Below are positions 10,322 to 46,008 of a stretch of DNA of 54,248 nucleotides, piece after piece. The number at the start of each line of letters is the position of its first letter. The stretch's first letter is position 1. The notes under the pieces are model-generated. The model saw nothing but the letters and a program-made list of their open reading frames with translations, was not told the DNA's origin and made no database searches. This stretch comes from a virus, in the IMG/VR virus record IMGVR_UViG_3300046824_000127, positions 1 through 54,248 of that record; one strand, written 5' to 3'. A program made the position numbers and the translations under genes.

Positions 10322-11185
10322 ATGATGGAGTTTGCGCGTGAGTATCCGAGGCTGGTGCGCGACACATGGGAGCACGGTGCGCATCGCACAGCTCGCGGTC
10401 GACCGCATCGAGCACTCTTCAACGTGGTGATCGATACCCTCGCGGTTGAGAACACCCTGATCGGCAACGGCTTCTCGAAGAAGTTCGCCATCGCAGAGCT
10501 CATGGCCTATACGGCTGGTTGGGACGACGTCGCCTGGTTGGCGCGGTTCAACAAGAACATCGCGCAGTTCAGTGACGACGGCGTGTCCTTCTACGGAGCG
10601 TACGGTGCCCGAATTTCGGAGTTGATCCAACCTCTCCTCACGCTCCTCACCGAGGATCCTGAGACTCGTCAAGCGGTGTGTCAGATCTACGATCCCACCG
10701 ACCTCATGGCGGAGACGAAGGACAAGCCATGCAACACGATGTTCCAACTCCAGACGATCGGTCACGTTCTCGACATGACGATCTACCAGAGGTCGTGCGA
10801 TCTGGTGTGGGGACTTCCGTACGATCACTTCAGCTTCTCTACGCTCCTGATCCTGTTCGCGCATCAGCTGGGTTTGCAACCTGGGCGCGTGATCAGGATG
10901 ATCGGGAACGCGCATGTCTACGAGCCCGAAGCTGGTTTCGCTAACCACGCTCGCCTGAACAAGGCGATGGAGAAGCAGCAGACTGAACTGTGGTTGCCGA
11001 AGCCCAACTCGCTGCTCGCATTCCGCGAGACCGCGATGATCGCTCGGTATTACATCGAGGCCGCGGACAAGAAGGACTACAAGGCCTTGACCCCAGAAGA
11101 GTTCACACCCGAGGCGCAGCAACTCGTCGAGCAACTCGGGTATCCCATCATCATGGACGAGAGCCACAAGGTGAAGAAGCCATGA
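10322..11185 (+). CDS. ThyA-fold pyrimidine hydroxymethylase (dCMP HMase-like)
   Basis: 287 residues of the thymidylate synthase fold. Seen: the nucleophile in KPCNTMFQL (PCH in ThyA), YQRSCDLVWGLPYDHFSF, and GNAHVY near the end. In ThyA the GLPFN Asn selects dUMP; here it is Asp (GLPYD). The same Asn-to-Asp change occurs in T4 gp42 and shifts preference to dCMP. The likely reaction is dCMP plus methylene-THF giving 5-hydroxymethyl-dCMP. Thymidylate or dUMP-hydroxymethyl synthesis is less likely. It leads an operon with a kinase, a MazG-like enzyme and dCMP deaminase. An alternative ATG lies at 10325. Confidence 0.75.
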   Translation: MMEFAREYPRLVRDTWEHGAHRTARGRPHRALFNVVIDTLAVENTLIGNGFSKKFAIAELMAYTAGWDDVAWLARFNKNIAQFSDDGVSFYGAYGARISELIQPLLTLLTEDPETRQAVCQIYDPTDLMAETKDKPCNTMFQLQTIGHVLDMTIYQRSCDLVWGLPYDHFSFSTLLILFAHQLGLQPGRVIRMIGNAHVYEPEAGFANHARLNKAMEKQQTELWLPKPNSLLAFRETAMIARYYIEAADKKDYKALTPEEFTPEAQQLVEQLGYPIIMDESHKVKKP

Positions 11186-12105
11186 GACTGATCCTCGAAG
11201 GTATCGATGGCGTCGGCAAGTCGACCATCCTCGAGCACATCGAGCGCACGCACCGCGTGAAGTCCCTTCACCTCGTGAAGCCGCCGAAGGGCGTGACTCC
11301 GCACAAATGGTCGGATTACTTCCGCCAGTCGTACGACACCGCGGAACTCCTCTCCCGCTCACACATCTCCGAGCGGGTGTACGGAACCCTGATCCGCAAC
11401 AAGTCGCTGATCGACGACTGGCAGAACTGGCTCCTCAACCTTCAGCTCGAGGTCCGCGGCTTCCACATCGCGTACATCGTCCGCGATCTCGCGTTGGTCG
11501 AGGAGCAGATCAAGGCTCGAGGAACCTCCGCGAGCGACTACGACCTGTGGGTCATCAACAACTGGTTCGCGATGGGTCAGGCGTATCTGAAGTACCTGCC
11601 TCCGCATCTCACGACGCAGGTCCACAACGCCGGCCAACTCAGTCAGGCGGTGGATGCCGCCGCGATCGTGGGAACCAGTCCGCTCTTCACCAGCAGCACC
11701 GAGCTGCGTGGGATCGGTTCGCTCACCCCGAAGGTCATCGTCGTCGGCGACGAGTTCACGCTCCGCCGCAGGGATTTCGTTCACGCGAAGCCCTTCGACT
11801 TCGGGGAAGCGTCGAAGCTCCTGTTCGAGGCGCTGCAACAGCTCCGCCACATCTACATCACCAACAGCTTCTACGCTGACCTCGGCGAGATCCGCTCGCA
11901 GTTCCAACTCGGCGACGAGTTGCGTCGGTTCGCTGGCGCGAAGATCATCGCCTTGGGAGTGGAGGCCGCGAAGCGACTCAAGCGGGTCGGGTTCGAGGCC
12001 AATCAGATCGTCCCGCATCCGCAGTACTGGCGGCGCTTCAAGTACGCCGACCGCGGATCCTACGTCAACGACCTGCGTCACGTCGCGGAGAACTTTCATG
12101 GATAA
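11182..12105 (+). CDS. Deoxynucleotide kinase fused to UDG-like domain
   Basis: 307 residues. Residues 1-~170 form a P-loop nucleotide kinase (LEGIDGVGKST Walker A, with an E-G-x-D-G start like thymidylate kinase). Residues ~175-307 resemble the uracil-DNA glycosylase superfamily: KVIVVGDEF, PFDFGEASKLL, IYITNSF, AKIIALGVEAAKRL and VPHPQYW in the family order. The kinase half could phosphorylate the hydroxymethylated dCMP, as T4 gp1 does. The role of the UDG-like half is unknown; it may be catalytic or a base-sensing domain. ATGA overlap with the HMase gene. Confidence 0.75.
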   Translation: MRLILEGIDGVGKSTILEHIERTHRVKSLHLVKPPKGVTPHKWSDYFRQSYDTAELLSRSHISERVYGTLIRNKSLIDDWQNWLLNLQLEVRGFHIAYIVRDLALVEEQIKARGTSASDYDLWVINNWFAMGQAYLKYLPPHLTTQVHNAGQLSQAVDAAAIVGTSPLFTSSTELRGIGSLTPKVIVVGDEFTLRRRDFVHAKPFDFGEASKLLFEALQQLRHIYITNSFYADLGEIRSQFQLGDELRRFAGAKIIALGVEAAKRLKRVGFEANQIVPHPQYWRRFKYADRGSYVNDLRHVAENFHG

Positions 12106-12595
12106 GAGCGCGCTCATCGCGATCCTTGGCCAGTTCGGTGAGGCGGAGGCAATCGCTGAGGTGATCCACGATTGCCTCCCACTCCGTGATCCGCTGCCGT
12201 TCAAGCGGCGCACCGAGCGGAAGACCGTCACGGTTTCCCTCGGCACCGATGGCAACATGGCCGTCGACGTCGAGGTCGGGTTCTACGAGGACGGAAGTCC
12301 GGGCGAGGTCTTCCTCAAGTCCGGCAAGGAGGGCACGGCGATCCGCGACCTGTTCGACGGGATCGCGATCATGCTCTCCGTCTCAATGCAACATGGCGTT
12401 CCGATCTCTGCGTTCCCAGTCCGCGGCCGGGGCAACGAGCTCACGGGCGAGGGGAACGAACTCTTGGACAGCATCTTCGAAGCCGTGGAGGAACTGTGCA
12501 CCACTCCGAAGCCGACTACTTCACAGACCGCGTCCGTGAGTTCATGCTCAAGCACGGAGCACCCATCGGCGTCGGACCCACCCTCGCAGCGCTGA
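12098..12595 (+). CDS. TSCPD-domain protein
   Basis: 165 residues. DVEVGFYEDGSPGEVFLKSG, then AIRDLFDGIAIMLSVSMQHGVPI, matches the TSCPD domain found at the C-terminus of adenosylcobalamin ribonucleotide reductases and as stand-alone phage proteins. No reductase active site is present. It may modulate deoxynucleotide supply. The start overlaps the kinase gene by 8 nt. The last ~30 residues are low-complexity Ser/Thr/Pro and overlap the next gene by 100 nt, which is unusually long. Confidence 0.7.
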   Translation: MDKSALIAILGQFGEAEAIAEVIHDCLPLRDPLPFKRRTERKTVTVSLGTDGNMAVDVEVGFYEDGSPGEVFLKSGKEGTAIRDLFDGIAIMLSVSMQHGVPISAFPVRGRGNELTGEGNELLDSIFEAVEELCTTPKPTTSQTASVSSCSSTEHPSASDPPSQR

Positions 12596-13044
12596 CTCTT
12601 CGCAAGAGTCTCGTCTACGAAGAGGCCAGCGAGATCCTCCTCGCGGTCCACGACAAGAACGAAGAGGACTTCATCGACGGACTCGGCGACTTCATCTACG
12701 TCGCCGCTGGAACGTGGGTCTCGGTGGCCACGAAGAAAACCCCGATGCGGCACAACCTGAACCCGATCAAGGGTGTCCACAACCTGTGGGATCCTCGGTT
12801 CGTCGACGCGGTCCATCACCGGATCGACAAGACGCTCGAGAGTCTCATCAAGCATCGCTACTCCGAGGTGATCTACCACGCCGTCGCACTGCCCCACGAA
12901 CTGGGGTACGACGTCAAGGGGATCTTCGACGAGATCCACTCGAGCAACATGACCAAGACGCCCACCAAGGGCGATATCAGGGTGCGTGTCAAGGGTCCCG
13001 ACTTCCGGCTCCCCGACCTCACCCGCTTCTTGAGAGGGAAGTGA
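12496..13044 (+). CDS. MazG/PRA-PH-like nucleotide pyrophosphohydrolase
   Basis: 182 residues. EEASEILLAVHD and, 12 residues on, DGLGDFIYVAAG give the ExxE...ExxD-type metal site of all-alpha NTP pyrophosphatases. The C-terminal IFDEIHSSNMTK...GPDFRLPDL is the tail typical of the phage PRA-PH-like branch. A role in removing dCTP, so that modified cytosine is used, would parallel T4 gp56; substrate is inferred. The GTG at 12496 has GGAGG four bases upstream; ATG 12544 is an alternative that shortens the overlap to 52 nt. Confidence 0.75.
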   Translation: MHHSEADYFTDRVREFMLKHGAPIGVGPTLAALTLRKSLVYEEASEILLAVHDKNEEDFIDGLGDFIYVAAGTWVSVATKKTPMRHNLNPIKGVHNLWDPRFVDAVHHRIDKTLESLIKHRYSEVIYHAVALPHELGYDVKGIFDEIHSSNMTKTPTKGDIRVRVKGPDFRLPDLTRFLRGK

Positions 13045-13194: not shown

Positions 13195-13314
13195 GTGAAC
13201 CTCTGGGAATACCTGAACGGCTGCGGCTTCTGGCAGTGGATGGGGAACTGCTTCCTCGCTCTCTGCCTGGCTGCCGGTCTCTCAGGTCTGATCCGGATCA
13301 CGGTCAAGAAGTGA
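13195..13314 (+). CDS. Very small membrane protein (39 aa)
   Basis: 39 residues from GTG 13195, ending at a GTGA overlap with the deaminase gene. Residues ~15-35 (WMGNCFLALCLAAGLSGLIR) form one hydrophobic segment, and the tail is basic. Such single-pass peptides in early phage operons can be membrane effectors. No SD is obvious, so confidence is limited. Confidence 0.4.
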   Translation: MNLWEYLNGCGFWQWMGNCFLALCLAAGLSGLIRITVKK

Positions 13315-13709
13315 GGGACAAGCTTCTCCGCCTGCACATGGACTTCGCGGTTCGCGTTGCTGAGCTGTCGCATTGCGTGCGGCAACAGAACGCGTGCGTG
13401 TTGACGTCCCTCGACGGAGAGCGAGTCCTCGCGTTCGGGTACAACGGGACCTGGAGGGGTGGACCCAACCAGTGCACAGGTCCCAATGAACCCGGGAAGT
13501 GCGAGTGCATCCATGCTGAGGTGAATGCCCTCATCAAGAGTCGGGCGTTCGAACCCTTCGTTGCTTTCGTCACGACGAGCCCCTGTCCGAACTGCGCCAA
13601 GTGCCTGGTGAACTCTGGGTGCAAGATGGTGGTTTGCGGTCAAGCGTACCGCGTAACGGATGGCGTCGTGCTGCTTCAGGACGCGGGAGTGGAGGTTTCC
13701 TTTGTCTAA
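13311..13709 (+). CDS. dCMP deaminase
   Basis: 132 residues of the cytidine/deoxycytidylate deaminase fold. CIHAEVNAL supplies the zinc His and catalytic Glu, and SPCPNCAKCL supplies the two zinc Cys. An N-terminal C-V-R-Q-Q-N-A-C segment and GYNGTWRGG are typical of dCMP deaminases. It makes dUMP for thymidylate and lowers the dCMP pool. The GTG start overlaps the preceding stop. A weak stem AAGGAA...TTCCTT followed by TTTATT overlaps the stop and may terminate transcription. Confidence 0.9.
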   Translation: MRDKLLRLHMDFAVRVAELSHCVRQQNACVLTSLDGERVLAFGYNGTWRGGPNQCTGPNEPGKCECIHAEVNALIKSRAFEPFVAFVTTSPCPNCAKCLVNSGCKMVVCGQAYRVTDGVVLLQDAGVEVSFV

Positions 13710-17645: not shown

Positions 17646-17881
17646 TGGTCGCGAAGCCTGAGCCGATCTTCCACGATGATGGCAAGACGCCGTGGATGGC
17701 ATTGGGTTGCCCGATGAACGGGTGCAAGCACAAGTTCAAGGTCACGTGGATGTACGAGAGCAAGCTCATCTCCTTTCGTAGGATGAACTACTACCTGATG
17801 CTGATGATCAAGAAGCACATGATGGCGGAGCACAAGAGTCCTCCTCCCCAGATCATCATCGATGACCCGGAGGCACCGTGA
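17642..17881 (+). CDS. Small C2H2-like zinc protein
   Basis: 79 residues, start overlapping the helicase stop. CPMNGC and, after a long helical stretch, HMMAEH make a C-x4-C...H-x4-H cluster (residues ~23-64). The spacer is much longer than in classical fingers. Met is unusually common in the second half. Function unknown; coupled to both neighbours by overlaps. Confidence 0.55.
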   Translation: MMVAKPEPIFHDDGKTPWMALGCPMNGCKHKFKVTWMYESKLISFRRMNYYLMLMIKKHMMAEHKSPPPQIIIDDPEAP

Positions 17882-18390
17882 TCACCTTCCTCCCCAGTCG
17901 GACCTTTACGGTCTGCGCGAAAGCGTTGGACGACAAGCGACTCCTCTCGCAGGTCGGTGAGGCGCGCATGATCCTTGAGGCCATTCTCGAGGGGAAGCAG
18001 ATCGGTCAACCGGCATTCGACATGTGGCGTCCGTATCCCGGTCACCTTGCGATCTACGGCAAGATCATGAGTGACGAACGCCATGTTCGCTGGGGAACGC
18101 GGACCGAGGCATTCTTCGTACCTCACATCCCTCAGTGGTTCTACGGGTTGGGTCACGCAGGTGAGAGCGAGATCCACATCGACCAGAAGGACTGGAACCG
18201 GTGGGACCCGATGAAGGTCAAGGATCCGCCGTGGCTCGGAGACAAGCGGTTGCACATCTCCCACATCCGTCGACTCTTCGACAAGGACCCTACGTTCTAC
18301 GCGAAGTGGCATGACATCGTCAACCATCCCGCCACGTACTGTTGCATCGGTTGCAACTACTGGTGGCCGACGCATGTGGGTGTCGTGTGA
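17878..18390 (+). CDS. Pyrimidine-dimer DNA glycosylase-like (MSMEG_6728 family)
   Basis: 170 residues. MITFLPSRTFTVCAKALDDK, then RLLSQVGEARMILEAIL, FDMWRPYPGHLAIYG and PPWLGDKRLHISHIRRL follow the order of the MSMEG_6728/DUF family related to T4 endonuclease V. Those proteins are thought to excise UV-induced pyrimidine dimers; direct proof for the family is limited. It starts with GTG overlapping the previous stop and lies in the replication-repair operon, which fits a repair role. Confidence 0.75.
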   Translation: MITFLPSRTFTVCAKALDDKRLLSQVGEARMILEAILEGKQIGQPAFDMWRPYPGHLAIYGKIMSDERHVRWGTRTEAFFVPHIPQWFYGLGHAGESEIHIDQKDWNRWDPMKVKDPPWLGDKRLHISHIRRLFDKDPTFYAKWHDIVNHPATYCCIGCNYWWPTHVGVV

Positions 18391-21925: not shown

Positions 21926-22206
21926 ACCGCTGGGCAGTGCTGCTCGAGAAGCAATCCAAGGACGGTGACACCAAGACAAGATGGTGCATCGCCGGGGCTC
22001 GCAAGCACGACATCGACTACATCGAAGCTACCTGCCGTATCAGAGGCAAGGAGTTCGGTGTCACCAAGAACGGCGGACCAGTGGCGTTCATCGCCCAGGC
22101 CGTCGTGATCTGGGAGACCGCGGAAGACAAGCTCGACGCTGAGACCCGCGTGATCATCGAGAAGTGGGCCAACGGTGACTTTGTCATCGATGCGAGTACA
22201 GCATGA
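21922..22206 (+). CDS. Hypothetical protein
   Basis: 94 residues, ATGA junctions on both sides. One alpha/beta domain (MNRWAVLLEKQ start, AQAVVIWETAEDKL in the middle). No family recognised. Coupled to the ligase gene. Confidence 0.5.
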   Translation: MNRWAVLLEKQSKDGDTKTRWCIAGARKHDIDYIEATCRIRGKEFGVTKNGGPVAFIAQAVVIWETAEDKLDAETRVIIEKWANGDFVIDASTA

Positions 22207-23138
22207 ACTTCGAACCGATGCTTGCACAACCGCTGGACTACGAGTACGACGAGGAGACTCTCCAGCCGAAGTTCACCGAACAGCAGTTCCAGTGGGACGC
22301 TGAGGTCAAGCTCGACGGCGTCCGCATGCTCGTCTACCTGGAGCGGAACTGCAACAACTCCCGTGCTCTGACTAGAGTCAAGGGCAAGCACACCGGGGAG
22401 TACGCCAACAAGCTCGGGCATCTCGCATGGGCGAGGACCGACGGGTTGGTGGAGAGCGGGACAACGGTCCTCGACGGTGAGGTCACGTGGGGCAAGAACT
22501 CGCGGACCACGATGGAGATCCTCGGTTGCCACGCGAACGAGAGTCTCATCCGTCAAGCGCGAACCGAACCACTGAAGTTCACCGCGTTCGACATCCTCAT
22601 GGGAGGCGGTCGGGACTATCGCTACAAGACCTACGAGCAGCGTCGCGACATCCTCACAGCGGTGATGTTCAACCTGAACGTCCAGTTTCCTGGCGAGGTC
22701 GATTGGGTGATGCCCGGACCCGCGAAGGCGTTATGGGCTCGCGGCGGCGAGGGCATCATGCTCAAGGAGCCGATGCACAACTACCAGACCGGACGACGAT
22801 CCGAGTCCTGGCTCAAGGTCAAGCGCTTCAAGAAGTACATCGCGGTGGTGACCGGTTACACGGCCGGAAAGCAGGGCAAGACGGGTCAGATGGTAGGACT
22901 CATGGGTTCTCTCTGGCTCGGGATGTTGGATCACCGTGGGATCCTGTTGCCGGTCGGATCAGCCGGCACTGGGTTCGGTATGTCAGAACGTTCGCCGTCC
23001 GCATGGCCAGTCCGCACTGTGGTGGAAGTGGCTTCATCGGACGTAACCGAGGATGGCAAGCTGTGGCATCCCAGGTTCCTCAAACGACGTCCCGATCTGA
23101 GGGTCGAGGACGCACTACTGTCACAGCTGGAGGCCTGA
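22203..23138 (+). CDS. ATP-dependent DNA ligase
   Basis: 311 residues. Nucleotidyltransferase motifs in order: AEVKLDGVR (I, with the adenylated Lys), LDGEVTW (III), FTAFDIL (IIIa), GEGIMLKEP (IV) and WLKVKRFK (V). The C-terminal ~85 residues form the OB-fold. Length matches small phage ligases. It seals nicks in replication. The start overlaps the upstream stop. Confidence 0.9.
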   Translation: MNFEPMLAQPLDYEYDEETLQPKFTEQQFQWDAEVKLDGVRMLVYLERNCNNSRALTRVKGKHTGEYANKLGHLAWARTDGLVESGTTVLDGEVTWGKNSRTTMEILGCHANESLIRQARTEPLKFTAFDILMGGGRDYRYKTYEQRRDILTAVMFNLNVQFPGEVDWVMPGPAKALWARGGEGIMLKEPMHNYQTGRRSESWLKVKRFKKYIAVVTGYTAGKQGKTGQMVGLMGSLWLGMLDHRGILLPVGSAGTGFGMSERSPSAWPVRTVVEVASSDVTEDGKLWHPRFLKRRPDLRVEDALLSQLEA

Positions 23139-25588: not shown

Positions 25589-25863
25589 TATTCAGCCACA
25601 CCGTTGGTGAGGTTCCCGTGCCAGTGCGTCGGGCCTCCCTTGAACTCGTGAGCATGGACGCTGGGCGTAAGGGTGAGATTAGGGAACTCACCCTCACCGT
25701 GCCAGATGTAGAGATCGTCATTGAGACGGTACGCCGGGGCAAACCGAACGAACCTCGCCATGATGCAGTCACCGTCTCCCTTAGGGCAAGTGAACACCAC
25801 CGCCTCGAACCCATCCGCACGCGTCATGTGAGCCGCAGGGTCCTCAGCGAGTACTACTCTCAA
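25588..25863 (-). CDS. Small tail-operon protein, His-rich end
   Basis: 91 residues from a TTG that overlaps the upstream stop as TTGA; an internal ATG (M11) is an alternative. The C-terminal part has five His residues (VHAHEFKGGPTHWHGN). Probably a tail accessory protein by position. No family recognised. Confidence 0.5.
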   Translation of the reverse strand: MRVVLAEDPAAHMTRADGFEAVVFTCPKGDGDCIMARFVRFAPAYRLNDDLYIWHGEGEFPNLTLTPSVHAHEFKGGPTHWHGNLTNGVAE

Positions 25864-28800
25864 TTGACCTTCCTCGGCCTGATGAGCGGCAAGTAACCTA
25901 CCCAAGAGTCCGCAACCTTCGCGACGATCATCCACGTCCCGGCGGAGATCTTCGCGGTAGACTGCAATCGCGGGGTCTTGACTGTGATGTCCTCGTCCCC
26001 ATTCCCATCGAAGTCCGTCGTCTTGTAGAGTCGCATCGAGATGTTGTTCTTGTCAGCGGCGTCGGACTTCACGACCGCGAACCCGAAGGGGTTGTCGATA
26101 GGGAGAACCCATGCGGTGCCGTCGTTGGCTACGTAGACCGGGAGAACCTGACCGTCAAAGACCTTGTTGGTTCCCATCTTCCGACCGATACGGTTTCCAG
26201 CAGAGGTCGAGAATGCCGACCCGACTTCCGTCAGCGACATGCTCGCATAGTGGTCCTTGTTTCGATCCGGAGAGACGTAGACGTCGTGGTTCGTCCCGGT
26301 CCAGAAGCCGGCGTAGTGTGGCATGAGGTAGGCGTACTTCGACTCGTTCGAGAACGTGGGGTGGTTCGGCTTCTTGAACGTATCCGGCCAGTGACCCGAG
26401 TCGGGATCCGCCGTCACGCCAGCGAGGAACGCACCACGGTAGTCGTAGTCCTGACCGGAGTCTGTCGGAGCATTGATGAGCTTCCACGCTTGGAACTTGG
26501 ACTCCTGATCCACGGTAAGCGCGGTGTTCCACCTGGTATCGTTCGGATCAGGAGTGTCATCGAAGCCGGACGGATCTCCGTTGTCCTCGACCTGCATCGT
26601 CCCTACCATCGTCCCACCGCGAGCGGAGGTCGTGCTAGAGCTTCCACCCTTGGTCGCGTAGAACGTACCGTCCTCTGCCTTGTGGACGACGACCTGATCG
26701 CCTTCCTGGATCGGAGTGCCAGAGATATTCTGGACCTTGACCTCAGTCTCGTAGACGTCTCCCGACGCGTTGTTGCTCTTATAGAGTTTCGCGTTGAATA
26801 CACCACCGATCGGACCCGCCGGAGTCTCCGCGGTCGTTGCGACACCCACATGGGTCTGTTTCTCGGTGAGACCAAGATCGAGGGCAGAGACCTCGATGAT
26901 CTCCGCGATGTCGTCGCCCGCTGAGAGTGAGAGCGCGGCAGGTGCTGTGTCCCCGGTATCGTCGAGGTAAGCGAAATTGGATTGAGTGTGGTTACCGACA
27001 ACCACCGGGGTCCACAGCAACGCCGTGATCTGGTTCTCCTCCGTGTCATGCTCCAGCTGTTCGATCATCGCGTTTGTGACCAGCTCGGACAACGTGGACT
27101 TCACATCGTCGTACACTGTCATCGCGATCGCGTCGAGGTCCCCGATGACTCGCAGCTTCCGCCACGCGTTTGCCCATCGGTAGAACCAGAACGTAGCGGT
27201 TTTCTGAACGAGGGTCTTGTGACGGTATGCCCAGATCTCGAGGTCCCGCTTCTTGCGACCGTACGCCAGGATCGATGCAGCGTCCTTGTAGTGTAGACGC
27301 TCTGGGTGTTGCTGGCTACCACGCCGATGCCACGCCACCCACAGGTCGTTGGTGATCTGCGTGGTCTCGGTCGACGTGACCTGAACCGTTCCCTCGAGGG
27401 TCGTGTCCTCGTCGTACGTGAACGGGATGGATGTAGGAGCAGCGGATAGATACTTGAGGTACGCGGTCGATCCCAATACCGAGAGACCGCATCGACCTTG
27501 GAAGGCGATGTCCCCGGCAACCTGCAGCGCGTCCTTCCTGGCGGTGAACGAGAAGTTCATCGGGTATTTCACGCACGCGGTCTTCACGGCGAGGAACGAT
27601 GCTGCATCTACCGTAATCCCGGCTTCGGTCATCAGGTTCGAGATGATGTCTGAGACGTTCGATCCCACCGTGGTGACCAGCGTCACGAAGAGCTCGTCCT
27701 GCCATCCCGTCCCGCGGGCGGACAAGGGCTTCTCCAACGTGATCGAGGTGCAGTGCCTTCCAGCGATCACGTCGTTCAGGTTCACCGTGTAGAAGTCGGC
27801 AGGAAGCACAACCAGTTGTCGCTCCCGACCGCCACGACTGTCCAGTTGAACCTCTCGCCAGGCACGGACCTGGAGTACAGAAGTCGATGGGACATCATTG
27901 GCGACGTATACCACGTTGGTGACCAGTCGAATAGAAGTTCCCGCTGGCCATAGAGTATCGTTGACATCCAGCACACCGCGGATGTCGGCTCGCGCTCCCG
28001 TCGTGATGTAGTATAGTCCCGACGCGACGATCCAGGGGAACTGTCCACGGGTCGCGTCTCCCTTCTGGTAGAGGATGTAGTTCTTGTAACCCACGAACGA
28101 TGGCACCGTGAAGTTCCCGTACAGAACGCTTCCGCCCGGAACCTCGATGCTGTTGATCAGACCGGAAGACGACAGCTCAGCGGTGTCGAGAAGGAAGAGC
28201 CAGTTGCCAGCGAGGATCTTACCTTGCGTATCCCATGCGGAGTACCGCGGGTCAGCTTCCCACGTGTTGTTCTCATTGGGATCCTGCTCGATCGAGGTCA
28301 ACTCAGACCTATCGTTCGAGTAGATGATGCCCTTGCTCTCGTTCCTCGAGGTGATGTGGAAGCGGAGGATCACGACAGGGTCGGTGGCGATAGACTCGAA
28401 CTTCCCGGTCAGGTACTCGTTTCCGATCTCCACAGTGACCAGGGTGTTGAGCGGGAAGGTCACGTCGTCTGCGACCTCGATGTCCACATGGTCAAACGTG
28501 GGTTGGAGCTCGCGGATCAACGTGCCCTTCGGGGCATCCACTACGAGGACCGCTGGTGCGTCGACCGGCGTGCCGTAGCATCGTGGCCACGGCTTGTTCC
28601 ACGCGAACTCCTGCAAACCGCTCGACTCGTCAGGCGCGAACGGGACCTCGGTATCGGAGTTGGACTCGTAGAAGGCGATGATGTCGAGCTCGAACGTCCT
28701 ACTGTCTTCGCTCCAAACGATAGGTGATCCGATTCTACCTACCATCAGCTCTACCGCATCGGCCACGTTGCCATCGAAGATCTGGAGAACCCTGGCGGTC

Positions 28801-29069
28801 CTTCCTTCGAGCCGCGTATTCCCGATCATCGTCAGGAAGTAGAAGTCCTCATCGCTGAGTTTGACGGAGATCGAACCGGCGGTTGCCGGAGCGCTTTCCG
28901 CGATCTGCATGTTCGCGTTGCCGAGCTCCATGATCCGACCGTCGGTACCGTCGAGGTCGCGATCCGCGAAAGTGAGCTTCCCGGCTCCGGTGTCGATCTC
29001 AACCAGGATGGCGGACTCATGTCCCTCGGTCGTCGCCGCAATCAGGTTGGCTGCGCTGACGCTTCTCAT
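25860..29069 (-). CDS. Large tail-tip/baseplate-like protein
   Basis: 1,069 residues, almost entirely beta-rich. The N-terminal ~200 residues (AGSISVKLSDEDFYFLTMIG, VGRIGSPIVW) resemble tail proteins that bind the distal tail. The middle (residues ~480-800) contains an assembly-hub-like stretch with HKTLVQKTATFWFYRWANAW. The C-terminal ~250 residues look like a fibre or decoration domain. It starts four bases inside the previous gene. Receptor or hub function is inferred from size and order. Confidence 0.65.
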   Translation of the reverse strand: MRSVSAANLIAATTEGHESAILVEIDTGAGKLTFADRDLDGTDGRIMELGNANMQIAESAPATAGSISVKLSDEDFYFLTMIGNTRLEGRTARVLQIFDGNVADAVELMVGRIGSPIVWSEDSRTFELDIIAFYESNSDTEVPFAPDESSGLQEFAWNKPWPRCYGTPVDAPAVLVVDAPKGTLIRELQPTFDHVDIEVADDVTFPLNTLVTVEIGNEYLTGKFESIATDPVVILRFHITSRNESKGIIYSNDRSELTSIEQDPNENNTWEADPRYSAWDTQGKILAGNWLFLLDTAELSSSGLINSIEVPGGSVLYGNFTVPSFVGYKNYILYQKGDATRGQFPWIVASGLYYITTGARADIRGVLDVNDTLWPAGTSIRLVTNVVYVANDVPSTSVLQVRAWREVQLDSRGGRERQLVVLPADFYTVNLNDVIAGRHCTSITLEKPLSARGTGWQDELFVTLVTTVGSNVSDIISNLMTEAGITVDAASFLAVKTACVKYPMNFSFTARKDALQVAGDIAFQGRCGLSVLGSTAYLKYLSAAPTSIPFTYDEDTTLEGTVQVTSTETTQITNDLWVAWHRRGSQQHPERLHYKDAASILAYGRKKRDLEIWAYRHKTLVQKTATFWFYRWANAWRKLRVIGDLDAIAMTVYDDVKSTLSELVTNAMIEQLEHDTEENQITALLWTPVVVGNHTQSNFAYLDDTGDTAPAALSLSAGDDIAEIIEVSALDLGLTEKQTHVGVATTAETPAGPIGGVFNAKLYKSNNASGDVYETEVKVQNISGTPIQEGDQVVVHKAEDGTFYATKGGSSSTTSARGGTMVGTMQVEDNGDPSGFDDTPDPNDTRWNTALTVDQESKFQAWKLINAPTDSGQDYDYRGAFLAGVTADPDSGHWPDTFKKPNHPTFSNESKYAYLMPHYAGFWTGTNHDVYVSPDRNKDHYASMSLTEVGSAFSTSAGNRIGRKMGTNKVFDGQVLPVYVANDGTAWVLPIDNPFGFAVVKSDAADKNNISMRLYKTTDFDGNGDEDITVKTPRLQSTAKISAGTWMIVAKVADSWVGYLPLIRPRKVN

Positions 29070-32000
29070 GACGCGAGGATCCCTTCGAACTCCAGCGCGA
29101 ACTGACCACCGCGGTCACGTCCTTCTTCAGCGAGATCGATGTCCGAGGTGGTGATGTACCCGATCCACTTCCTGTTCTTCTCGTCGATGTAGTAGATCTT
29201 CTTGCCCTTGCACACGCGCAGGAAGTTGCGGACCTGTTCGAGCTTCAGGTACGAGAGGGACTCGAAGGTGATTGACTGCGGCTCATAGGTCGGGGTACGC
29301 GAGTGCGGTCGAAGCTTCCCACCACGGGTTCGATTGACCTTCACCTGCAACGCCTGACGGCGGGAGTTCCCATACTCAGGTCGCTTGAGCTGAACCGTGA
29401 GCGAGAGGTTCGGCAGTGGACCGATCAGATAGACGATGTTCACATCATCTTCGCTGGCCGGAAGCGGGCGCTCGGGCGTGAACCCCGGTTGGCATCCCTC
29501 GTCCGCCTTCATCGCCACAAGACCGACGATGAAGTTGATGATCCCGGACATCGTCTTCTTCAGCGAAGCGTTGTACGTCAGGGACTGCGTGAAGTTGATC
29601 ACCTGCGAGAAGACCTGTCGCTTGACCACGTTGACCACGAACGCCCCAGAGAAGGCGATAGAGTTCGTCATCGTTGCGGAGACCACGCGATTGAGGCGAG
29701 ACTCGAAGTTGATGCTCTGGTGGATGTCCAGCGTCGGGGACTTCACGCCACTGAGCGTGCTGGTGAAATGGACGGTCTGTGTGATCGGCTGGACGTTCAC
29801 ACCTGCGTCCAGGTGCTGCGTGAAGTCGATGTTGTTCGTCATCGCCCTGGTCCGGGCGAAGTTCAACCTGGAGAAGAAGTTGATCGTGTTGCGGAGCGTG
29901 AGCGAGCGAACCGCGGACAGGGCCGACGTGAAGTTGATCGTGTTGGTCAGGACTCGACGCTGGGTCGACAGGATCGACGTGAAGTTGAGCGTCGTCTCCA
30001 TCGCGGCCGCGTTGCCCGAGATGATGTCCGTGGAGTAGAAGTACTCCTCCGAACCTCGCATCGACCCTACCACGCCACGCGTGTAGTTGAGCGAGCTCCC
30101 GTAACCCGGACCGTGAACCGTCTGCACCGAGTCACGTGCGTTGGCCGTGATTTGGAAGTAGGTCCACGAGGCGTCCGATCCGCGCTTCGCCATGGTGACA
30201 TTGAGACCCAGCGAGGCCGAAGCCCAGCAGATCACCGGGGTGCGCAGGTTCAGCGAGAGCGAAGGGTAATCCTGGTCATCGTCCACGTCAGTGTGAACGT
30301 ACTCCACCGCACCCCACGCGGTCGTCCGCTGGAAGTACGCAATCCGGACTCGGCCGGTGTAGAGCGTCCCGCGAACGCGGCAGGCGACGTGAACGTAACC
30401 ACGGTCGTCCACCGCGATCGAGATGCCGGAGTGGAAGTCCGTGATGTTGTTGCCACCGTACCCAGTCGCGATCAACTCCTCGGTTCCCCACGCGCCACTG
30501 GAGTACTTGCGGTAATAGAGCTTGTGGGTCGACGAGGACCGGATCGAGTAGACCGCGTGGACATTGCCCGAGGCATCGAGGCACGAGGCGACTCGACGGT
30601 AGACGTGCGGACCGGTTCCGGAACCGTCACCGTTCTTGACCAGGACTCCCGCAGCCCACGTGACGAGGTCGGCCGAGGTTCGACTGTAGACGCGACGATC
30701 GCTGGTGCTGGTGATGTAGGCGTACACCATCATGTACGTCGAGCCGGTGTACATGATTTGGAAGGAACCGCTCTCCGCGATCGGTTCGTTGAGCTGCTTC
30801 TTCAGGACCCACGAGGTTCCATTCCACAGGTAGATGTAGAAGTCGTCGTTGCTCGGGCGGGTGAGGACGAGAGCCGGTGCATCGCCAGCTCCAATGCACA
30901 TCGCCATTCCCGCCGGTACCCAAGTGGGACCGACGACCGTCACCGTCCACGTGGTTCCGTTGTCGCTGGAGTACGCGACCTTGACCGCGCCTCCCTCGTA
31001 GTACACGTGCCACAGGATGCCAGCCGCCGACTTGATGATCTGACGACCACCACCCTGGACCCGCGTGACCGCGGACGCAACCACGCTCCGGATGATGAAG
31101 CCCTGCAGCGAGAGGGTCTGATTGAACCGGATCGTCTGGGAGATCGTCTTCGGGTACGTGCCCGAGTCCAGGTCGCTGGAGACGAAGACCTTCCAGTCGT
31201 TGTCGTTGTTGTTGAAGTACCCGATCAAGTCGCCAGCCTTCAGGCGGCTGGTGCTTCCATCGCTGAGGATCGAGATCCCGTATTGATCCTTTGCTTCGTC
31301 CAGGAACTCTGTGATCACCCAGGAACCGGTGGACTTGTCGGAACTCTTGATGCTGAAGTGGGTGGTATCCGCTCCACCGTTCTTCATGTCCGACCAGATC
31401 TTCCATGACGTAGCCGAGTAGTACATCACCCGACAATCGTGATAGCTGGCGTCCAGGTAACCGTTGCTGTCCGAACCTCCCCACGTTCCGCTGGTCCGTA
31501 GCCTGGTTCGGATGATGTCGTTTCGCGCGCCGCTCTGATAGTCGCGGTAGATGATGCGCATGTCTGAGGTCCCAGGAACCCACGCGAGGTGAATTCCGCG
31601 AGGTCCCAAGCCAGCGCTGTACGGTCCACCCATCGATGAGCTGATGTCGGTCGTGGTGATCGAGGCAGTTCCACCCGACCAACCACTGGTCAGCTGAACT
31701 CGCCACATCGCCTCAGCACCGGTGCGAACGATGCAGACACCATCGATCGCACCGGTGGAGTCCATGAGAAGCCAGGACTGACCACCGGTATTTCCCGACG
31801 TTCCCATGTTGATGATGGACGCCGGAGCTCCCCAGGTCGACATGTCGTTCTGCGACACTGAGTACCGCATCGGGTTGCTGGCGGTCGTGTCGATCCAGGT
31901 CAACAGCCACGAGTTCGGAACCGTGGGATGCTGGAACAGGTGAATGCGAACCGAGGGTTCAAGCGAGGCAGGCGTTACCGTTCCCTTCGCGACCCACGAA

Positions 32001-32329
32001 CCGCTCTCGCGCCGGAACATGCGGATCCGGATACCGACCGTGTCCTGCAGCATCACGGCAACGACCGGAAGTCCCGCGGCATCCGCGGTCAGGTAGTAGT
32101 TCCACTGACCAGGGTTAGCCGGGGTACTCGGGGTGAAGACGATTTCCTCGGAACCCCATGTGAGACCGAAGTCCGAAGATGAACGTGCACAGACCTTGTT
32201 GCCAGTTGCGCTTTGGTACAGCGTCCATACGATGGCACCGATCCGCACCATGCGGTCGTTTGAATACGCGCTAATGTTTCCATTAGCCGAATTCGACTCG
32301 ATCGTTACGTTCGTCCACGTAGTCGGCAT
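29066..32329 (-). CDS. Tail protein: Asp-box beta-propeller plus tandem repeats
   Basis: 1,087 residues from the ATG ending at 32329. Residues ~40-760 look like sialidase-type propellers: SSSDFGLTWGSEE and YSSDNGTTWTVTV are Asp-boxes (S-x-D-x-G-x-T-W). Residues ~780-940 hold nine repeats of 16-20 residues around [TS]INFTSxLS. Residues ~950-1087 form a separate domain (ITFESLSYLKLEQVRNFLRV) like distal-tail proteins. It probably binds or processes host surface glycans; catalytic residues of a sialidase are not identified. A strong hairpin precedes the start. Confidence 0.65.
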   Translation of the reverse strand: MPTTWTNVTIESNSANGNISAYSNDRMVRIGAIVWTLYQSATGNKVCARSSSDFGLTWGSEEIVFTPSTPANPGQWNYYLTADAAGLPVVAVMLQDTVGIRIRMFRRESGSWVAKGTVTPASLEPSVRIHLFQHPTVPNSWLLTWIDTTASNPMRYSVSQNDMSTWGAPASIINMGTSGNTGGQSWLLMDSTGAIDGVCIVRTGAEAMWRVQLTSGWSGGTASITTTDISSSMGGPYSAGLGPRGIHLAWVPGTSDMRIIYRDYQSGARNDIIRTRLRTSGTWGGSDSNGYLDASYHDCRVMYYSATSWKIWSDMKNGGADTTHFSIKSSDKSTGSWVITEFLDEAKDQYGISILSDGSTSRLKAGDLIGYFNNNDNDWKVFVSSDLDSGTYPKTISQTIRFNQTLSLQGFIIRSVVASAVTRVQGGGRQIIKSAAGILWHVYYEGGAVKVAYSSDNGTTWTVTVVGPTWVPAGMAMCIGAGDAPALVLTRPSNDDFYIYLWNGTSWVLKKQLNEPIAESGSFQIMYTGSTYMMVYAYITSTSDRRVYSRTSADLVTWAAGVLVKNGDGSGTGPHVYRRVASCLDASGNVHAVYSIRSSSTHKLYYRKYSSGAWGTEELIATGYGGNNITDFHSGISIAVDDRGYVHVACRVRGTLYTGRVRIAYFQRTTAWGAVEYVHTDVDDDQDYPSLSLNLRTPVICWASASLGLNVTMAKRGSDASWTYFQITANARDSVQTVHGPGYGSSLNYTRGVVGSMRGSEEYFYSTDIISGNAAAMETTLNFTSILSTQRRVLTNTINFTSALSAVRSLTLRNTINFFSRLNFARTRAMTNNIDFTQHLDAGVNVQPITQTVHFTSTLSGVKSPTLDIHQSINFESRLNRVVSATMTNSIAFSGAFVVNVVKRQVFSQVINFTQSLTYNASLKKTMSGIINFIVGLVAMKADEGCQPGFTPERPLPASEDDVNIVYLIGPLPNLSLTVQLKRPEYGNSRRQALQVKVNRTRGGKLRPHSRTPTYEPQSITFESLSYLKLEQVRNFLRVCKGKKIYYIDEKNRKWIGYITTSDIDLAEEGRDRGGQFALEFEGILAS
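29505..30005 (-). repeat. Protein-coding tandem repeats (INFTS repeats)
   Basis: Nine imperfect repeats encode TLNFTSILS, TINFTSALS, TINFFSRLN, NIDFTQHLD, TVHFTSTLS, SINFESRLN, SIAFSGAFV, VINFTQSLT and IINFIVGLV at 16-20-residue spacing. The pattern predicts a regular beta fibre connecting the propeller region to the C-terminal tail-binding domain. Confidence 0.75.
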
Positions 32330-32343
32330 GTTCACCCCGAAAG

Positions 32344-42817: not shown

Positions 42818-43831
42818 CTAGCTCCCCTTCACTGCGCTGGCGAAGCCCTTGGAGGTCGACGTGTCCTTGCCCGCGGGGACGCCGGCGCTCTCGCCGACTC
42901 CCTTCGAGCTGGACGTCGGCTTCGTGGAGACCTTGCCGGTGGTCTTGTCCGCCAGTTCCTTGCGCTCGGCGAGCAGGGCGGTGAACCGCTCGTCCGTGGT
43001 CGACGACTCCATGCACATGGCCTGGAACGTCGACGTGTTGAGATGCTCGGGCAGCTTGGCCTCCGCGATCTTCACCTTGCGGGCCTCGTCGCGCGTGCCC
43101 TTGGCGGTGACCGCCTTGTGCCCGTCGATCTGGACCTTGAGCTCCTTGTTCTCGGCCTCCGCGGCCGTGACCTTCGTCTCGAGCTCCTTGAGACGGGTCT
43201 CCTGGACCAGTGCTTCCGCGACGGTGAGGATCTTGAGATCCTGACGCGCCGCCTGGAGCTGGTCGCGAGTCATGGAGATGAGCTCCACTGTGCGTTCTCC
43301 TTCCTGCATGGCGGCGCTTTCGTAAAGGCCCGCCGTGGTCCCGCCATTGCTGACCACGTCGACCGAATGGACTTTCTCGATGTCGCTCGTCACGAACCAA
43401 CCGGACTCGTAGCTGCCCACGAGATCCGCGAGATGTGACAGCGCGTACTGGCCCGGATCGTTCTCCGCCGCCCACTTGACGGCCTCGGCGAACGGGTGAC
43501 CGGGGTTGAAGTGGAGGTCTCCGATGAGACCTCGCGACTCGTCGACCCGCGGGTTGCGGATGCGACCGAACGGTGTGGACGCCGGCCGCGGCTGGTTCCG
43601 CTTGCTCGGGTCGTAGAGACCGGCCGGGTGATCGAAGTTCACCTGGGCGTTCTCGTACTTGTTCGCGTTCCGGCGCATCGCCTCGACTGGGTACTTGCGC
43701 TTGTGGCTCGGGCTTTCGAACCCGAGGACCTTCACGCCGGGGATCACGTTGCCCGTGATCTTCGTTCCGGCTGCCGACCACTCCGCGACGGTCTCGCGAA
43801 CGGGTGGAGCCTTTTCAGCGACTGAAGACAT
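42818..43831 (-). CDS. Prohead protease fused to scaffold
   Basis: 337 residues. Residues ~60-170 hold protease-like motifs: NFDHPAGLY with a conserved His, ALSHLADLVGSYE, and VHSVDVVSNGGTTAGLYE, as in U35/S78-type prohead proteases with catalytic His and Ser. Residues ~190-260 are coiled coil, followed by a Ser/Thr/Lys-rich tail, typical of the attached scaffold. It directs assembly of the procapsid and cleaves itself and partners. The start lies 17 nt inside the upstream gene. Confidence 0.75.
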   Translation of the reverse strand: MSSVAEKAPPVRETVAEWSAAGTKITGNVIPGVKVLGFESPSHKRKYPVEAMRRNANKYENAQVNFDHPAGLYDPSKRNQPRPASTPFGRIRNPRVDESRGLIGDLHFNPGHPFAEAVKWAAENDPGQYALSHLADLVGSYESGWFVTSDIEKVHSVDVVSNGGTTAGLYESAAMQEGERTVELISMTRDQLQAARQDLKILTVAEALVQETRLKELETKVTAAEAENKELKVQIDGHKAVTAKGTRDEARKVKIAEAKLPEHLNTSTFQAMCMESSTTDERFTALLAERKELADKTTGKVSTKPTSSSKGVGESAGVPAGKDTSTSKGFASAVKGS

Positions 43832-45293
43832 AGGTCCTCACTCCCTCCCGCCCGAGGGCGGTTTCTGTGTCGTTCTTCTCGAGGAGGCGGAAACCCTTCT
43901 CGGTCATGAAACGAACGAAGCCTGAGTCGGTCCAGTAGTGCATGTGCTCGCGGGGCTTGAAGTGCCTCGAGCGAAGCACATGCTCACGGTCGTTGTAGAT
44001 CGGCATCGAGACCACGCAACCGACCGTCGTCCGACGGAGGAGGTCGTCGATCTCGCTCATCTCCAAGTGCTCGAGCGAATCCCAGAAGGTCAAGACCTCG
44101 AAGTCGTCCATGACCTTCGGGTCGACGTAGCGACCGAGTTGCTTCAGCCGGGCGTTCGTCGTGGGATTGATGTCGAAGCCGTAGGCGCCGGAGGCTTCCA
44201 CGAAGTGGCAGGCTCCGGGACCGACGTCGACGTACTCCTTGAACTTGAAGTACTTGTCCGTGATCGCGACGCGGAAGTGCGTGATCTCCTGACCCATGCC
44301 CGTGCACTTCAGGCGTGCGTAGTTGTTGAAGTACGACTCGTCGTACTGCCCATCGAGGAACACCGGGTAGTGACCGTACTCACCATCCCACGTGAGGAGG
44401 CGAGGACATGCGATCTTCGAGAACGCGGCGTCGACCTGTTCCAGGACCTTGTTGCACTGGCCGTTGGTGTGGCGGTTCGAGAAACCGCAAGTACAGAACG
44501 GGGTCGGTTCGATCGCGGCATACGGTCCGCCGATCATCCAGGGTTCGACGAGCGAGCGGTCAGGCAGATCGCCACCGTAGAGGCAGAGGGTCGGGGTCCT
44601 CAGAGCAATCCCCAAGGGGAGCATGAAGCCCACGCAGGTGACGATCACGTCAGCGACCGCCATGAGGGCGATGAGCTGTTCCGTGGTGAACTGACCGCGC
44701 ATCAGGGAGCGGGTGACTCCCTTGAGAGCATCGCCGTACAGAACCTCGTGAGGTTCGTCCAGCCACCCTAGTTCCCACCACTCGAACTCCTGATGCTGGT
44801 CGATCAGCTGCTGCATGTACCGAGGATCATTCGGTCGCGCGCTGTTCGGCCACTCAGTCCTGACCGTGCCGGGATGCACGATCGCCAGGGGCTTGCGACA
44901 CTGCGACTTCTTGTACTCCTTCGCCCAGTCCAGCCACTCGGGCTTCGGACGGAACGAGAAGTCCACCGGTCCGTTAGTGAAGCCAGCGTTCTCCAGGAGA
45001 GCGCTGGGGATCGACATTCCCTTGGCGAAGTCCGTCGTCGAGTAGCGGAGATGCCGCCGTTCGTACGGGGACTCGGGACGCTCGTCCCACCCGTCGGCGT
45101 AGGACTTCAGGTTCGCAGCCTGAGTCCTGAGCTGGGTCTCCGTCGGGAGGATCTTGACCGGCAGATCCCACCACACCTGAGGCCAGGAGGTTCGGGCCCA
45201 AACCTCCCAGCCTTGTGCGAGACAGGCTCGCGCAACAACGCGCTGGTACACGTTGTCACCGAGTCCCTGCATGCACTCCAGGATCAATCGCAT
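43815..45293 (-). CDS. Glycosyltransferase (GT9-like)-methyltransferase fusion
   Basis: 492 residues from the ATG ending at 45293. Residues 1-~280 resemble GT9/heptosyltransferase-like GT-B enzymes: LECMQGLGDNVYQRVVARA at the start, AIVHPGTVRTEWPNSARP, then ALMAVADVIVTCVGFMLPLG. A Cys cluster (CTCGF...C) follows near 270. Residues ~340-492 form a SAM methyltransferase: YVDVGPGACHFVE, GFDINP, WDSLEHLEM. It may glycosylate and methylate a capsid protein or DNA. Placement inside the head operon is unusual. Confidence 0.7.
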   Translation of the reverse strand: MRLILECMQGLGDNVYQRVVARACLAQGWEVWARTSWPQVWWDLPVKILPTETQLRTQAANLKSYADGWDERPESPYERRHLRYSTTDFAKGMSIPSALLENAGFTNGPVDFSFRPKPEWLDWAKEYKKSQCRKPLAIVHPGTVRTEWPNSARPNDPRYMQQLIDQHQEFEWWELGWLDEPHEVLYGDALKGVTRSLMRGQFTTEQLIALMAVADVIVTCVGFMLPLGIALRTPTLCLYGGDLPDRSLVEPWMIGGPYAAIEPTPFCTCGFSNRHTNGQCNKVLEQVDAAFSKIACPRLLTWDGEYGHYPVFLDGQYDESYFNNYARLKCTGMGQEITHFRVAITDKYFKFKEYVDVGPGACHFVEASGAYGFDINPTTNARLKQLGRYVDPKVMDDFEVLTFWDSLEHLEMSEIDDLLRRTTVGCVVSMPIYNDREHVLRSRHFKPREHMHYWTDSGFVRFMTEKGFRLLEKNDTETALGREGVRTYVFSR

Positions 45294-45451
45294 CCGAACA
45301 CCTTCTTGAACTTGGCCCACTCTTCCGGGGTTGCGACCTTCTTGTACTCGTTCGCGTAGATCGTGAAAACGTGCCAGATGCGCGGATAGAGGAAGATCGA
45401 GCGGAGAATGCTCTTGCCGAACTTCTTCCAGAGCGCGCCTCTGAACGTCAC
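45284..45451 (-). CDS. Small basic protein (55 aa)
   Basis: 55 residues from a GTG overlapping the upstream stop as GTGA. One hydrophobic/aromatic helix (SILRSIFLYPRIWHVFTIY) with basic flanks. It may sit on the membrane surface; a lysis role is conceivable because a lipoprotein and a holin-like gene lie upstream. It overlaps the glycosyltransferase start by 10 nt. Confidence 0.45.
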   Translation of the reverse strand: MTFRGALWKKFGKSILRSIFLYPRIWHVFTIYANEYKKVATPEEWAKFKKVFGCD

Positions 45452-46008
45452 GCGGTCTTCGGCGACGCGGGTCCGTCCGCGTTCGGCGGCGCGGCGACCG
45501 GAGTTCCAGGGGTGCTCCACCAGCGACGCACGTGCTTCTGACCGCGGGTGCCGGCGTAGATTGTGCCGACCGCCGCGCCGAAGAGTTCCATCCCGTTGAT
45601 GATCGTGTCGGTCCACGGGGTGCTGTGCGCAGCAGCCTTGAAGCTGACGACCGCATGCGTCCGGCCGGAGATCGACTGGTCGCCCTTCAACGCGGCGTCG
45701 GCGATGGCCTTGATCTCGGGCTTGGTCGTGTCGACCTTGCCGATCAGGTCCATGATGTTCTTGTGGTTCGCCTCGGCGAGATCGTTCGAGACGCCGAGAT
45801 GCGTGATCTGGCTTCCGGTTCCCGTCGCGTCGGCGAGCTCGGCCGCGGTGGCCGAGGCCTGCTCCGCGAGCGGGACGTTGGCCGGATCGGCCTTGACGGC
45901 GATGTCCGCGAGGGCGTTGACGGCCTCGAGGTTCGACTCGCCCATCTTGGAACTCACGCAGGCGATCACAGCGACGGCACACACAAACAACGCGATGACG
46001 TACTTCAC
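45448..46008 (-). CDS. Lipoprotein-like protein
   Basis: 186 residues; GTG with AGGAGG five bases upstream. MKYVIALFVCAVAVIAC is a signal sequence with a lipobox-like VIAC, so lipid attachment at Cys17 is likely. The rest is Ala-rich helix, then a Pro-rich end. It could be an outer-membrane spanin, a superinfection-exclusion lipoprotein, or part of a surface-modification set. The lipobox alone does not distinguish these. Confidence 0.55.
   Translation of the reverse strand: MKYVIALFVCAVAVIACVSSKMGESNLEAVNALADIAVKADPANVPLAEQASATAAELADATGTGSQITHLGVSNDLAEANHKNIMDLIGKVDTTKPEIKAIADAALKGDQSISGRTHAVVSFKAAAHSTPWTDTIINGMELFGAAVGTIYAGTRGQKHVRRWWSTPGTPVAAPPNADGPASPKTA

Follow-up and report, generated by a model that had tools for sequence, protein, structure and literature searches.

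In phage T4, dCMP is modified by the dCMP hydroxymethylase gp42 and then phosphorylated by the dNMP kinase gp1, which carries no glycosylase domain. YorR of phage SPbeta and the dTMP kinases are single-domain proteins as well, and P-loop kinases that act on bases within DNA are established for phages containing 5-hydroxymethyldeoxyuridine (hmdU). Folds of the uracil-DNA glycosylase (UDG) superfamily are encountered on both sides of the conflict between phages and bacteria. A UDG-like domain (Z 10.0) forms the N-terminal domain of a phage replication enzyme, the family-A DNA polymerase of phiLo (PDB 9qhs), where it is fused to a polymerase and not to a kinase; the title of the PDB entry mentions a modified template, and no paper on this polymerase was found in the open-access literature searched. 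Phage enzymes that handle modified DNA may often carry a UDG fold as an accessory. Conversely, Brig1, a bacterial anti-phage defence enzyme with a UDG-superfamily fold close to that of the Sulfolobus tokodaii family-4 enzyme, shows bacteria using this fold against modified phage DNA: it excises glucosyl-hydroxymethylcytosine and carries a glutamate (Glu147) at the position where the family-4 asparagine (S. tokodaii N82) contacts and hydrogen-bonds the Watson-Crick face of the base (PMC11078745). The closest counterpart in architecture to the protein described here is gp315 of Bacillus phage G, a kinase joined to a UDG domain that is annotated only as thymidylate kinase; a dCMP deaminase and a thymidylate synthase (TS) homologue with Asp177 are encoded nearby, the latter not adjacent.

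The window, i.e. the whole stretch of DNA analysed (an IMG/VR virus record, 54,248 bases long), encodes a protein in which the two folds are likewise joined. We propose, with roughly even confidence, that it is a kinase for 5-(hydroxy)methyl-dCMP with an attached glycosylase domain that reads uracil or 5-hydroxymethyluracil (hmU), placed in a phage cytosine-modification cassette. The fusion gene and its parts are as follows:

11182..12105, + strand: gene for the 307-aa fusion of a P-loop dNMP kinase with a UDG-superfamily domain (ORF, AF2, Foldseek, VIA, hhalign, Pfam)
11182..11691, + strand: kinase half, residues 1-170, YorR/dTMP-kinase fold (family profile against PDB 2axp, E 3e-20; VIA Z 14.4)
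11200..11223, + strand: P-loop GIDGVGKS, residues 7-14 (conservation among 51 members)
11710..12102, + strand: UDG-like half, residues 177-307 (VIA match to 4zbx; domain alone Z 11.6; hhalign E 7.5e-8)
11743..11757, + strand: motif 1, VGDEF, with Asp190 in the place of the family-4 GEGPG Glu (acid in 51/51)
11791..11802, + strand: PFDF, whose Phe205 corresponds to the base-stacking Phe of family 4 (50/51)
11857..11868, + strand: ITNS, whose Asn228 corresponds to the Watson-Crick-face Asn of family 4 (51/51)
12013..12039, + strand: PHPQYWRRF, whose His279 and Arg285 correspond to the His and Arg of family-4 HPAYLLR (each 50/51)

The reading frame is intact, with an ATG at 11182 that shares bases with the stop codon of the upstream TS homologue (ATGA) and a TAA at 12103-12105. 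Taken by itself, the window protein gives weak library matches (PF02223, E 0.006); its C-terminal half has no Pfam or PHROG match, and a search of the protein with UDG families returned nothing above threshold. Both halves nevertheless turned out as the preliminary description had them, which confirms the two-domain fusion as well as the UDG fold. The full-length AlphaFold2 model (pLDDT 93.2, pTM 0.90; input with 51 family members) has higher confidence than a model of the C-terminal half alone (pLDDT 77.6). In the N-terminal half, a P-loop and a kinase fold of the dTMP-kinase type are present: residues 1-182 superimpose on YorR (2axp; 168 residues aligned by VIA, Foldseek also matching), and the P-loop is retained in nearly all of the 51 members (G12 in 49, K13 in 50, S/T14 in 50). 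The C-terminal half contains the predicted motifs in UDG order (VGDEF 188-192, PFDF 204-207, ITNS 226-229, ALGVEA 257-262, PHPQYWRRF 278-286), and the structural comparison whose failure was to speak against the proposal found a UDG match: residues 169-307 align with the family-4 UDG 4zbx over 133 residues at 3.0 A (VIA Z 12.4), again with Foldseek in agreement.

On fold and motifs alike, several lines of evidence place the C-terminal half in the UDG superfamily. With the domain alone, the Z-score is highest for family 4 and declines through UdgX (10.9), TDG (8.9), SMUG2 (8.8) and MUG (8.5); the top Foldseek matches are UdgX mutants, YorR and family-4 UDGs. The family profile reaches the UDG TM0511 at 1e-4, and hhalign of the UDG half against 79 family-4 UDGs from genomes gives a probability of 94.5%, while five column shuffles and the kinase half, used as controls, all remain at E above 0.2. 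PF03167 (UDG) matches the C-terminal half in 26 of 50 relatives at E up to 0.1 (best 5.8e-7); the window protein has no PF03167 match and the curated Pfam cut-off is not reached, whereas phage G gp315 passes the Pfam cut-offs for both halves (UDG 1.5e-12, Thymidylate_kin 1.1e-6). An assignment to UDG families 4-6, as had been envisaged, thus holds for the nearest relatives (family 4 and UdgX) and fails for membership. The window protein contains no Cys, so that the four [4Fe-4S] ligands are absent, and the UDG domain of most relatives has 0-1, which implies that the family-4 Fe-S cluster is missing. Instead of a GEAPG-type motif 1 there is VGDEF (a GD(E/x) pattern), in which only the acidic residue is retained, and residues 229-257 hold no His and no UdgX-type KRRIH loop with its covalent His. 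The domain is also shorter (~130 aa compared to ~190-210 for family 4); the segment with the Fe-S ligands is missing, which makes DNA binding by this half uncertain.

In spite of these differences, fold, motif order and pocket residues are common to the UDG half and family 4/UdgX. With Thermus family-4 UDG as the alignment reference, the acid, Phe, Asn and His of the pocket are each found in at least 50 of 51 members. We consider it probable that the UDG half is an active glycosylase. Alternatively, the fold could serve as a sensor without catalysis, regulating or positioning the kinase through binding of DNA or a pyrimidine base; the acid at position 190 is mostly Asp rather than Glu among the 51 members, one relative has a degenerate motif, and two phages have lost the UDG half altogether (see below), but the four pocket residues, the His among them, are nearly invariant, which goes beyond what binding alone demands, and we regard such a sensor as unlikely. 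The relative in question (L057, 4001-4939) is a fusion whose HPQ motif is replaced (PPPLHHM) next to a TS still of the Asp type, and its UDG half may be inactive; L059 and L087 resemble it by profile coverage. In phage G gp315, NPGG stands in the place of motif 1 and the acid is lacking.

As to the base that is read, the Glu of Brig1 was not found at the Watson-Crick-face position, which is Asn in 51/51. Brig1 and, presumably, the fusion family share a context of hydroxymethylcytosine phages. This invariant Asn would argue for a uracil-type base rather than modified cytosine itself, and whether U or hmU in DNA is preferred is about an even call.

The genes next to the fusion and a little further downstream are:

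10322..11185, + strand: TS homologue carrying Asp where the E. coli enzyme has Asn177, and Asn at position 147 (PF00303, 4.7e-25)
12098..12595, + strand: TSCPD-domain protein, overlapping the end of the fusion gene (PF12637, 3e-9)
12496..13044, + strand: MazG/PRA-PH nucleotide pyrophosphohydrolase, start codon uncertain (PF01503, 3.3e-9)
13236..13709, + strand: dCMP deaminase (PF00383, 8.7e-13; phrog_174, 4.4e-38)

The TS homologue combines the Asp at 177 with Cys146, i.e. it is of the dCMP-directed type, and is predicted to be a dCMP-directed hydroxymethylase or methylase. Its linkage to the fusion is tight. Among 83 IMG/VR and phage loci, 81 have the TS homologue, 81 the fusion and 80 both, and the two genes mostly overlap by 4 to 23 bases (with ORF starts taken as the longest possible). 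Residue 177 is Asp in all 63 readable neighbours, three other entries being truncated or broken fragments, and residue 147 is Thr or Asn. As a control, 80 viral loci with ThyA, restricted to close relatives of the E. coli enzyme and therefore phylogenetically narrow, had Asn177 in 76/76 distinct sequences and no fusion (0/80). Asn177 was also found in td, in two actinophages and in two phages that either are annotated as hmU-type or are related to such phages, while the TS of a Lactobacillus phage with an adjacent beta-glucosyltransferase has Asp177. Trp80 is variable among cytosine-type TS members and does not separate a hydroxymethyl-dCMP from a methyl-dCMP product. dCMP deaminase matches occur in 76 of the loci examined; some of these (L016-L020, L027-L032 and others) contain two dCMP-deaminase-like genes, ~2.0 and 4.3 kb downstream of the fusion.

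In the MetaGPA study, TS residues 177 (Asp) and 147 were the best TS markers of cytosine-modified contigs, and TS, PRA-PH, dCMP deaminase, MafB19-like and DNA ligase domains were associated or co-occurring (PMC8670742). The window has matches to all of these domains, among them an ATP-dependent DNA ligase at 22203-23138 (PF01068, 2.1e-20). Furthermore, the DNA of Stenotrophomonas phage AXL3, which carries the fusion, is cut by only two of 37 restriction enzymes (TasI and Tru1I), both with A/T-only sites, and is resistant at G/C-containing sites (PMC7504290). This pattern fits modified cytosine; AXL3 also encodes a methyltransferase, and its restriction resistance does not identify the base. 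For Pseudoxanthomonas phage PW916, a second carrier, the main text of its paper gives no restriction data.

These observations bear on the kinase substrate. Current database records label the fusion proteins only 'thymidylate kinase', the UDG half being unannotated in PHROGs, and the dTMP kinase model TIGR00041 matches 44 of 51 members, mostly weakly. One could therefore take the protein for an ordinary dTMP kinase with an ordinary uracil repair domain and no role in base modification. Yet the window protein scores 16.2 bits against an equivalog cut-off of 83, so that by the NCBIfam cut-off the kinase half does not classify as a dTMP kinase. The strict pairing of the fusion with an Asp177 TS, its absence near Asn177 ThyA and the restriction resistance of AXL3 also speak against this explanation, which we regard as unlikely. 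A modified dCMP is the likely substrate, as the preliminary description had suspected: the Asp177 TS, the dCMP deaminase and MazG-type genes nearby and the resistance of AXL3 DNA strongly support it by context.

The pathway we have in mind would follow the steps of T4. The adjacent Asp177-type TS homologue would make 5-hydroxymethyl-dCMP (or methyl-dCMP), and the N-terminal kinase would phosphorylate this product to the diphosphate, a step towards the dNTP pool. The minimal, Fe-S-free UDG domain would then, most likely, flip out and excise uracil-type bases from the modified genome, either uracil or the hmU that arises by deamination of hydroxymethylcytosine, so that, through the fusion, bases would be checked at the site of modified-nucleotide synthesis and close to replication. 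This suggests a coupling between the synthesis of a special base and the policing of its uracil-like decay product.

It is conceivable that the UDG half instead hydrolyses the glycosidic bond of free dUMP or hm-dUMP (the latter formed when the phage dCMP deaminase attacks hm-dCMP) and so cleans the pool feeding the kinase. The fusion to a nucleotide kinase, the linkage to dCMP deaminase, the minimal domain without the family-4 insert and the uracil-type pocket would all suit such an activity; its close structural neighbours are all DNA glycosylases, however, and Arg285, which aligns with the Arg of family-4 HPAYLLR, is conserved. We know of no UDG-fold nucleotide hydrolase. Action on free nucleotides thus seems unlikely, and action on DNA would be the better description. 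Very unlikely, in our view, is a further possibility, in which the UDG fold flips hydroxymethylcytosine out of the helix and the kinase phosphorylates the base in DNA, similar to the 5-hmdU DNA kinases of hypermodified-thymidine phages. Such phages offer a precedent and the fusion would provide the base flipping, but the kinase half matches YorR and nucleotide kinases of the dTMP-kinase type, the gene is coupled to nucleotide-level genes, and the pocket Asn fits the face of uracil, not that of cytosine. Among the family models listed for the window and its relatives, with Pfam represented by the first 25 entries, none was that of a 5-hmdU DNA kinase. That the domain is either a base-flipping module for a kinase on 5-hydroxymethylcytosine in DNA (a route to cytosine hypermodification) or a glycosylase on free hm-dUMP is, as a combined proposition, improbable; if true, either activity would to our knowledge be new for the UDG fold.

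Returning to the proposed modified-dCMP kinase with its uracil-reading domain, we find that the fusion is widespread. Two IMG/VR scans, which overlap and count contigs more than once, yielded 164 ORFs with both halves, compared to two complete stand-alone UDG-like ORFs and a few kinases without a UDG half. Stand-alone UDG-like proteins in L171 (2953-3375, 141 aa) and L172 (2917-3384, 156 aa) have an HPQYWKRF motif and no TS homologue near. Named records with the fusion are AXL3, PW916, DSL-LC01, phage G and ctUtU524, phage G gp315 being counted on top of the 81 fusion-bearing loci. Since the same fusion is carried by the other loci, a recent joining event restricted to the window contig is rejected. 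A bacterial host gene was likewise not supported: a family-profile search of genome contigs, scanned with one exact peptide pattern, gave 43 pattern matches of which none was confirmed.

The UDG half is under purifying selection, with a constraint no weaker than that on the kinase half (dN/dS of 0.08-0.25 and 0.20-0.24, respectively, when the window is compared with the three relatives nearest to it), and the two halves co-diverge (r 0.89, Mantel 0/2000). Together with the open frame and the shuffle controls, this rules out chance or a translation artefact. The idea of a coupled make-and-check step gains plausibility from this selection and from the conserved pocket, without being obligatory: HTVC200P and Forza keep an Asp-type TS and a kinase that lacks the UDG half, which makes this half an accessory.

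While each of its parts is known, the fusion as such is conserved and unrecognised, and cultured phages (AXL3, phage G) carry it; no description of a kinase-UDG pairing was found in the open-access papers searched, and one could exist elsewhere. It would tie base excision directly to the synthesis of a modified nucleotide, bears on how cytosine-replacing phages handle U- and hmU-type deamination products, and may help to flag, from sequence, those phages in which modified cytosine is likely.

Elsewhere in the window, two proteins of >1000 aa encoded on the minus strand (25860-29069 and 29066-32335) have no PHROG match. A second base-excision gene, a predicted pyrimidine-dimer DNA glycosylase, lies at 17878-18390 (PF03013, 1.8e-8). 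Near the portal and terminase genes, a 613-aa protein is encoded on the minus strand (43815-45656), the C-terminal part of which matches the PHROG 'methyltransferase' (2.4e-52).
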